Source of the DNA: Verrucomicrobiota bacterium
Lineage (GTDB): Bacteria; Auribacterota; JABMQX01; JAFGEW01
Length of the DNA stretch: 52,959 bases
Direction of reading: 5' to 3'
NCBI GenBank assembly: GCA_016931415.1
Contig: JAFGEW010000113.1
Location: 1 to 52,959, forward strand
Shown: piece after piece, positions 7,427-9,971 of the stretch
Position numbering within the stretch: position 1 is the first letter of the stretch
Layout of the letters: every line of letters starts with the position of its first letter
Notes under the pieces: model-generated
What the model was told of the DNA's origin: nothing
Seen by the model: only the letters and a program-made list of their open reading frames with translations
The model's database searches: none
Translations under genes and position numbers: made by a program

Positions 7427-8267
7427 ACCTTTCCAGGGGCGCGAGCCGGCACCGTCCGTCGAGGAGGCCTTCATCCCCGCCGTGCCAGAAACGCCTGCCG
7501 AGCAGCTCGAGACCAAGCCGTTCCTCGAGCACCTCAAGGAGCTGCGCACGACGCTGCTCAAGATCATTGGCGTGTTCGTCGTGTGTGCCATCGTCTGCTT
7601 CGTCGCCCTCAAGCCGATCGCGGGCTTGCTGCTGCGGCCGCTCGCGCAACTCGAAGCGAGCAAGGGCCTGGAGCCGGGCACGATCACGCTCATGACCCTG
7701 GGGCCGTCGGAGGGGTTCGCCGCACTCATGTCGATCGTGTTCGGCGCGGCGCTTGGGCTGAGCCTGCCGTTCACGCTCTGGTTCATCGCGCAGTTCGTCT
7801 CGCCGGGCCTGACGCCGGGCGAGCGGCGGGCCGTCGCGCCAGGGCTGATCGCGGGCGTGCTGCTGTTCGTCGCCGGGGTGCTGTTCGCGTTCTTCGTCAC
7901 GTCATCGCTGCTGGTGGGCTTCCTCTACAGGCTCTACGAAGGCCTCGGGTGGCGCAACGCCTGGACGGTCAGAGACTACTATGCCTTCCTGACGCAGTTC
8001 CTGCTCGTGACGGGGCTGACGTTCGAGCTGCCGCTCGTGCTCGCGTTGCTGGTACGCGTCGAGGTGCTCTCTCTGGCCCAGCTCAGGCAATACCGGCGCC
8101 ATGCCCTGATCGCCATCCTGTTGCTGGCTGCCGTGTTCACTCCGCCCGACGCGGCGTCGATGTTCCTGGTCGCCGGGCCGATGTACACGCTGTACGAAGC
8201 GTCGATTGCGGTCTCAACGCTCCTGAGACGCCGCGCACGCGGACAGAAACCCGCACTGCGGCAATAA
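7419..8267 (+). CDS. tatC: Twin-arginine translocase subunit TatC
   Basis: Integral membrane receptor of the Tat pathway. The start at 7419 (MPEPFQG) overlaps the tatA stop. Diagnostic features are the N-terminal FLEHLKELRTTLL before the first membrane helix, six hydrophobic segments, the loop SEGFAALM and the late FTPPDAAS motif. At 282 residues it is slightly longer than usual because of a 30-residue proline/glutamate-rich cytoplasmic N-terminus. It ends in a basic tail RRRARGQK. Confidence 0.93.
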   Translation: MPEPFQGREPAPSVEEAFIPAVPETPAEQLETKPFLEHLKELRTTLLKIIGVFVVCAIVCFVALKPIAGLLLRPLAQLEASKGLEPGTITLMTLGPSEGFAALMSIVFGAALGLSLPFTLWFIAQFVSPGLTPGERRAVAPGLIAGVLLFVAGVLFAFFVTSSLLVGFLYRLYEGLGWRNAWTVRDYYAFLTQFLLVTGLTFELPLVLALLVRVEVLSLAQLRQYRRHALIAILLLAAVFTPPDAASMFLVAGPMYTLYEASIAVSTLLRRRARGQKPALRQ

Positions 8268-8579: not shown

Positions 8580-8778
8580 TCCTCCTCCTTCCAGCCGGAC
8601 TGCCCAAGCTGTTCCTATCGTTCGCCCCATAGCTTCTGTACCTCAGACACGCCCAGGCATCAAGTCTTTTCCTGGGCTTTCCGGCCGCCCTGCCTTCGCC
8701 CCAGAAATGCGTTGCCCGGGCCGGGCGACCCGCTATACTAAACCAACAACAACGCAAATGAGCTCCGGCGGGAATCTC

Positions 8779-9141
8779 ATGCACAACAAAGAAGGTGCGC
8801 TGTTTGGCGCGGTTTTCTACAAGTTGCTTTCGCTGGGCATCGTGGTGATCTCTGTGGCCCTGGTGGTCTGGATCATCTGGGCCATTGTCCGCACCAGCGC
8901 CATAACCACCGAGGCAGCCGAACCCAAAGCGGACGGCAGTGCCGAGGTTTCGCCCCCCCCGGCATCCGCGGGCGACCCGCCGCTCGCCAACGTCCGCCTG
9001 GTCGGGCCGGGTAAGCCGGACCGGATCATCGAGGTGCTGCTCGTTCCCGTGGCGCGCAGCCTGGCGGCCCTCGATGAGCATCTCGGCCGCCTCTCGGGCC
9101 TTGCAGCGGACGCAGGTTTTTTCTGCGGCGGACCGTCATAA
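8779..9141 (+). CDS. Membrane-anchor segment of polysaccharide deacetylase (0-frame product)
   Basis: Open frame of 120 residues. It starts MHNKEGALFGAVFYKLLSLG and has one transmembrane helix (about 15-38) followed by a proline/alanine-rich periplasmic linker. On its own it has no catalytic domain. It ends at TAA 9139-9141, inside a stable hairpin just after the heptamer T TTT TTC. A -1 shift there joins it in frame to the NodB deacetylase at 9183-9971, giving a product of about 397 residues with linker FFLRRTVITVHAQRAWEHRE. I read it as the 5' part of one gene; alternatives are a real mutation or a sequencing indel in the T run. Confidence 0.65.
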   Translation: MHNKEGALFGAVFYKLLSLGIVVISVALVVWIIWAIVRTSAITTEAAEPKADGSAEVSPPPASAGDPPLANVRLVGPGKPDRIIEVLLVPVARSLAALDEHLGRLSGLAADAGFFCGGPS

Positions 9142-9147
9142 CGGTCC
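9117..9147 (+). promoter_or_regulatory. Candidate programmed -1 ribosomal frameshift signal
   Basis: The slippery heptamer T TTT TTC (9117-9123) is in the correct phase for the upstream frame (codons GGT TTT TTC). Six bases later is a perfect hairpin, GGACCGT-CATA-ACGGTCC (9130-9147), whose loop and 3' arm contain the 0-frame stop TAA. Heptamer, 6-nt spacer and a stable stem-loop are the three parts of known -1 signals such as dnaX or IS elements. Confidence 0.6.
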
Positions 9148-9182
9148 ATGCCCAACGCGCCTGGGAGCACCGCGAGCTCCGC

Positions 9183-9971
9183 ATGATCCTGACCTTTGAC
9201 GACGGCCCGCACCACGTGCCGCTCGGCACGGGGGAGAACTACACCGAGCGCCTGCTCGAAACCCTCGACGCCAACAGCGTGCAGGACCATATCAGGGCCG
9301 TCTTCTTCGTTCAGACCCATGTCGGCATCCGAGGCGCTACCGCCGAGGGCCAGCAGCTCATGGTGCGCGAGGCGGCGGCCGGCCACCTCGTCGGCATCCA
9401 CACCGGCAGCACCGACGACCATGTGGACCACCGAACGCGTGCCCGCACCCCCGCCTACGACTGGAACCTCGACGGCGCGCTTGATGAGCTCGACGGTGCC
9501 AACGCCCTCGAATCCGACCTGCGCCGCGCCACCGACCGGATCAAGAAGCTGACCGGGACCGCGTCCCAGCTTGTGCGCCCCACCTACGGCGCGACCAACG
9601 GGGCCGTGCTGGCCGTCTACCGAACGCTCGGCTTGCGTATGCTGCTCTGGGATGTGGACAGCCGCGACGCGCTTGACCATGCACGAGGCGCTGCCGTCAT
9701 CGCCGCCAACGTCCGAAGCCAAGTGCGCATGCAGATCCGCGCCGGTCATACAACGATCGTCATCCTCTTCCACGACATCCTCGCCGCGACAAGCACCCAC
9801 CTCGACGACTACCTCATCGCCATCTACGAAGCCGCTGAAGCCGAAGGCAGGGTCGCCATCTTTCCCGGGAGTCGTGACGAGCTGCTCGAATGGCTCGACG
9901 ACGCCCTCGGCCTCAACCACGAGCTGCTGGACAGCAAGCCATACGAGCTTGCGCCGGCAGAGTCGAACTGA
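9183..9971 (+). CDS. Polysaccharide deacetylase (NodB homology domain)
   Basis: Catalytic part of a carbohydrate esterase 4-type deacetylase acting on peptidoglycan or another N-acetylated glycan. The first ATG at 9183 falls directly in the first beta-strand, MILTFDDGPHH, containing the TFDDGP catalytic/metal motif. The metal-binding HxxxH of the family may be represented by IHTGSTDDH. RPTYGATN matches the RxPYG-type motif 3, LWDVDSRD is motif 4 and ILFHDI is the LxH motif 5. No convincing ribosome site precedes 9183, and frame-minus-one translation from the upstream membrane-anchor frame supplies the missing N-terminus. Whether a short form is also made from 9183 cannot be decided. It ends 28 bp from the convergent permease gene. 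Confidence 0.85.
   Translation: MILTFDDGPHHVPLGTGENYTERLLETLDANSVQDHIRAVFFVQTHVGIRGATAEGQQLMVREAAAGHLVGIHTGSTDDHVDHRTRARTPAYDWNLDGALDELDGANALESDLRRATDRIKKLTGTASQLVRPTYGATNGAVLAVYRTLGLRMLLWDVDSRDALDHARGAAVIAANVRSQVRMQIRAGHTTIVILFHDILAATSTHLDDYLIAIYEAAEAEGRVAIFPGSRDELLEWLDDALGLNHELLDSKPYELAPAESN

Follow-up and report, generated by a model that had tools for sequence, protein, structure and literature searches.

The closest described counterparts of the frame junction considered here are the -1 frameshift sites of IS3-family transposases, in which an in-phase X_XXY_YYZ heptamer (U_UUU_UUC is among those used) is followed, after a spacer of 5-8 nt, by a simple hairpin, and the downstream ORF is expressed as a fusion. 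These sites occur in many elements and yield transposase, whereas the locus described here specifies a single-copy cellular enzyme and was seen in one genome. Similarly, dnaX (A_AAA_AAG in E. coli, A9 in Thermus) combines a slip on a homopolymer with a downstream structure, but the slip shortens the dnaX product, whereas it would lengthen ours, and the Shine-Dalgarno-like element upstream of the E. coli site has no equivalent at our locus. According to published hairpin rules, a stimulatory hairpin spans at least 17 nt, starts 4-10 nt past the motif, opens with a G-C pair and reaches at least 7.6 kcal/mol; in the same study, the hairpins of the IS3 set have 0.45 +/- 0.12 kcal/mol/nt, and the class H_HHU_UUY, which includes T_TTT_TTC, is efficient in E. 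coli (Sharma et al., 2014; PMC4066793).

Frame-shifted genes in general have been surveyed on a large scale, and 146 clusters holding 4,302 of 206,991 such genes look programmed; programmed cases are therefore a few per cent of the total, largely transposases and prfB, and the unclustered, homology-validated cases were judged to be mostly sequencing errors or indels (Antonov et al., 2013; PMC3711429). Like the singleton frame-shifted genes of GeneTack, our locus appears to be one gene with one frame break and intact homologues; unlike them, its break falls at a slip site that is formally complete. At the protein level, those CE4/NodB deacetylases (PF01522; PgdA-like) whose N-terminus bears a membrane anchor or a lipoprotein signal share its catalytic motifs and its predicted layout of anchor or signal, linker and NodB domain, whereas the homologues examined are single ORFs and the gene studied here is split between two frames and carries an EF-hand-like insert (DWNLDGALDELDG).

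The window, that is, the whole stretch of DNA analysed, comprises 52,959 nt, and the features at issue are as follows.

8712..8739, plus strand: promoter-like site TTGCCC-16-TATACT, 39 nt 5' of the anchor ATG (consensus match only)
8779..9141, plus strand: upstream (anchor) ORF of 120 aa from ATG 8779, without a Pfam family
9117..9123, plus strand: heptamer T_TTT_TTC, in phase with the upstream ORF
9117..9971, plus strand: -1 frame with the NodB/CE4 deacetylase, 22 codons before ATG 9183, stop at 9971
9124..9129, plus strand: 6-nt spacer between heptamer and hairpin
9130..9147, plus strand: perfect 7-bp hairpin with a CATA loop, -10.4 kcal/mol, unique in the genome
9139..9141, plus strand: TAA stop of the upstream frame, within the hairpin
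9183..9185, plus strand: ATG, the sole start codon that keeps the deacetylase domain whole

The upstream ORF has one strong transmembrane segment (aa 19-37, KD19 2.94), followed by an Ala/Pro-rich linker and a C-terminal amphipathic stretch; the segment lies in the upstream frame and shares a protein with the enzyme only upon a frame shift. No homologue of this anchor, stand-alone ones included, was found in the phylum (44 genomes). The promoter-like site is the one consensus match found before the anchor, against 0.4 expected by chance. In addition, the linker contains a run of eight C (window 8953-8960) with an identical coding frame on either side, and a terminator-like match ending at the T run (9100-9116) was rejected, its 5-bp stem being at chance level.

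The -1 frame matches PF01522 with 60.8 bits (E 1.7e-16) against a curated cut-off of 23.1, and no second PF01522 gene scoring above it turned up anywhere in the genome. The motifs TFDDGP, HTG....H, RPTYG and LFHD are present in the alignments, with the second His of motif 2 further off (HTGSTDDH), as in the homologues. An EF-hand/dockerin-like insert (DWNLDGALDELDG, window 9450-9490) is a possible calcium-binding loop; the nearest homologue has the insert too (DVNRNGVLDTADG), and the Cupriavidus homologues have none. A product started at ATG 9183 would begin with MILTFDDGP, at the first strand and without an export signal. The first-pass annotation held that this start lacks a ribosome site, which overstates the case, because a GGAG core precedes it by 15 nt, a spacing too long for a good site, and the overall anti-Shine-Dalgarno energy nearby (-6.1 kcal/mol) is about average for the genome. 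It also had the -1 frame running straight into MILTFDDGP; the frame does reach this segment, although EHRELR intervenes between AQRAW and MILTFDDGP. A single-sequence AlphaFold model of the -1 frame product reached a pLDDT of 36 and is useless on whether the residues before the ATG join the fold.

In the frame of ATG 8779, the junction reads GGT (9115-9117) TTT TTC (ending at 9123). The -1 frame is open from 9078, and the heptamer sits, in phase, inside the 61 nt (9078-9138) over which both frames are open. The hairpin arms, GGACCGT (9130-9136) and ACGGTCC (9141-9147), enclose the loop CATA (9137-9140); the isolated 18-nt element amounts to 0.58 kcal/mol/nt, compared with the IS3 average given above, and passes all thresholds of Sharma et al. 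(2014), with a ddG/nt of 0.47 against a threshold of 0.09. Its start, 6 nt past the heptamer, falls within the 4-10 nt required of a downstream structure, and it is a putative stimulator of slippage. Both the in-phase heptamer and the hairpin enclosing the 0-frame stop were confirmed exactly, to the base, as first annotated. An origin of the hairpin from a repeat element was rejected, both arms being unique in the genome, and an Rfam search of the window matched nothing. The optional Shine-Dalgarno-like stimulator is absent (anti-Shine-Dalgarno energy -3.2 kcal/mol within the 20 nt upstream of the heptamer); every other formal part of a -1 site is in place.

How surprising this arrangement is depends on what is counted. 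Among 119,214 codons in ordinary genes, 0.43% are followed by a perfect stem of 7 or more bp with a loop of 3-8 and a spacer of 5-9 nt. Other in-frame heptamers rarely carry such a hairpin (0 of 161 in one count and 1 of 494 in a larger one), the latter being all in-frame X_XXY_YYZ sites in 447,147 codons, of which only 3 are T_TTT_TTC. When the peptide LRRTVITV... is recoded synonymously with codon-usage weights, 10.8% of the recodings give a 7-bp hairpin at that place and 2.5% match the energy of the 18-nt hairpin, and over 30-40 nt the fold is unremarkable, with 7-9% of coding sites equally stable. The heptamer is not independent of base loss, because one T lost from a T7 in the same phase leaves T_TTT_TTC, and the hairpin is thus the sole independent evidence for programmed shifting. 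As synonymous recodings also form the hairpin and the upstream element is missing, the signal as a whole is weakened.

Several observations bear on whether the two frames make up one gene. A 3-periodic coding model, trained on long ORFs of the same genome, indicated that coding lies in the upstream frame as far as the T run and in the deacetylase frame from there onward; the change from the anchor frame to the -1 frame falls within 9102-9136 (95% posterior interval), and the model is therefore compatible with the T run without pinpointing it. Over the 59 nt that precede ATG 9183, the deacetylase frame has a coding score of +3.1, compared with -3.5 and -8.5 for the other frames. One ORF without a frameshift encodes the nearest homologue (G001, at 47% identity, from another family of the same class), which combines a lipoprotein-type signal and a linker with the NodB domain; the Cupriavidus homologues (31-33% identity) are likewise single ORFs, each with an export signal. 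G001 provided the only strong homologue among the 44 genomes of the phylum and 384 sampled genomes, and hence the one relative in the phylum with which conservation of the site was compared; the named genomes searched gave only distant matches, at 28-32%. The locus therefore shows the combination expected of a frame-broken gene, namely an intact single-frame homologue and a coding switch without a good ordinary start. Because each homologue examined carries its export signal within a single ORF, the anchor and the deacetylase are probably one gene, a reading made the better one by the coding switch, the homologue architecture and the leaderless start at ATG 9183. It is uncertain in that a fused-versus-separate test ranked the pair only 5th of 372 same-strand neighbours, most near the top looking like ordinary pairs, and the ribosome-binding energy at 9183 is not nil. 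The first-pass annotation is thus supported in that the two parts are best read as one membrane-anchored NodB (CE4) gene, while the programmed slippage by which it joined them was not borne out, given the dependence of the heptamer on base loss and the intact ORF of the nearest relative.

We also looked for broken genes elsewhere in the assembly, which is of the metagenome type (4.06 Mb, 134 contigs, 98.9% complete, 4.5% contamination); 1.76 Mb were scanned with start-aware tests, which replaced a first scan that mostly caught ordinary gene pairs. Several frame breaks interrupt a copy of transketolase next to an IS3-like transposase (L132 5600-8060, G000:C115), other transketolase-type genes existing elsewhere in the genome; a gene without a Pfam family is broken near 8181, with no homopolymer there (L119 7043-8756); and a mutator-type transposase is also frame-broken (L032). 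Two further flagged loci, L092 and L105, were rejected, as their translations read as ordinary gene pairs. Broken genes thus number about 1-2 per megabase, within the limited sensitivity of the scan, and the focal gene is the sole homopolymer frameshift found in the scanned 1.76 Mb. As 243 homopolymer runs of at least 6 are undisturbed inside intact long ORFs, albeit ORFs chosen for intactness, homopolymer error does not appear to be common in this assembly. No second lesion or motif decay was seen in either half of the focal gene.

The dnaX gene of the same genome (L145, G000:C31, about 92992-94065, minus strand) carries an in-frame A9, GGA AAA AAA AAG CCT AGC, at which a slip into the -1 frame leads to a TAG after two codons, probably a tau/gamma recoding site of the Thermus type, A9-type dnaX recoding having been described for Thermus and other bacteria (PMC3711429). 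With such a classic site in its dnaX, frame-shifted expression in this organism is plausible.

Four explanations of the junction were weighed, with probabilities that are judgements and not computed posteriors; their order, as given here, follows from the survey prior weighed against a rare, well-placed hairpin. We consider it just about probable that an anchored deacetylase gene has lost a base. The locus would then encode, as a single gene, an inner-membrane-anchored NodB-type (CE4) polysaccharide deacetylase, with an N-terminal transmembrane anchor, a linker and a catalytic domain predicted to face the periplasm, and its frame would be broken by one base lost in or next to the T run at the anchor-domain boundary, either by a recent mutation in the population or by an error in the metagenome assembly. 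Provided that the base is truly missing, translation would end at TAA 9139-9141 and mainly free anchor would be made, with enzyme arising at most from leaky slippage on the heptamer or from weak initiation at ATG 9183. This agrees with the coding switch, the coding score before the ATG, the single-ORF homologues, the automatic appearance of the heptamer when T7 becomes T6 and the other frame-broken genes of this genome. It sits less well with a hairpin placed like a stimulator, for which chance at arbitrary coding sites is about 0.4%, with two undecayed halves and with homopolymer runs that are otherwise undisturbed. Programmed -1 frameshifting is a serious but, in our view, doubtful alternative: ribosomes paused at the 9130-9147 hairpin would slip on the heptamer, tRNA-Phe re-pairing from TTT/TTC to TTT/TTT, and anchored deacetylase would be made in a fixed ratio to free anchor, the slip being the only source of the membrane-anchored form of this wall or envelope enzyme. 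The formally complete site, with its efficient-class heptamer, 6-nt spacer and rule-passing hairpin, the rarity of such hairpins behind other heptamers, the intactness of both frames, the apparent promoter of the gene and the A9 site in dnaX all speak for it. Against it, the nearest relative is a single ORF and the heptamer is conserved in no relative examined; moreover, the upstream stimulator is absent, the hairpin, a short one, owes part of its occurrence to the encoded peptide (11% of recodings form one), free anchor has no known benefit, and known cases are rare outside mobile elements, dnaX and prfB. Our literature search found no paper on a deacetylase using programmed frameshifting.

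The remaining explanations take the junction either as a boundary between genes or as a slip of a polymerase. A pair of ordinary neighbours, one gene encoding a small membrane protein and ending at 9141, the other encoding a cytoplasmic deacetylase from ATG 9183, perhaps translationally coupled, seems unlikely to us. The modest fusion rank, the ordinary-looking pairs around it and the average anti-Shine-Dalgarno energy near ATG 9183 would suit such a pair, and rhizobial NodB is itself a leaderless CE4 enzyme. However, the domain would start leaderless at its first strand, whereas the homologues examined have an export signal in the same ORF; in addition, the deacetylase frame already has a coding-type score in the 59 nt before the ATG, the GGAG core lies 15 nt away and the anchor has no stand-alone homologue. 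Polymerase slippage, as transcriptional slippage on T6 or as a phase-variable T6/T7 on/off switch through replication slippage, is very improbable. A homopolymer at the frame junction of a surface-enzyme gene, a gene type that is often phase-variable, would invite it (PMC3711429), but T6 is short: transcriptional recoding has been described for T runs >8, and the survey of frame-shifted genes used runs of 7 or more for phase variation (PMC3711429).

If the shift is not programmed, the locus is a warning, since a T run that loses a base automatically becomes a canonical slippery heptamer, and chance places a good hairpin behind it often enough in a GC-rich genome; a heptamer and a hairpin in one genome are, for these reasons, not proof of recoding. 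If it is programmed, the locus would be a rare instance of a non-mobile bacterial gene for envelope modification that uses frameshifting, and it would point to control of enzyme dose via ribosome slippage.
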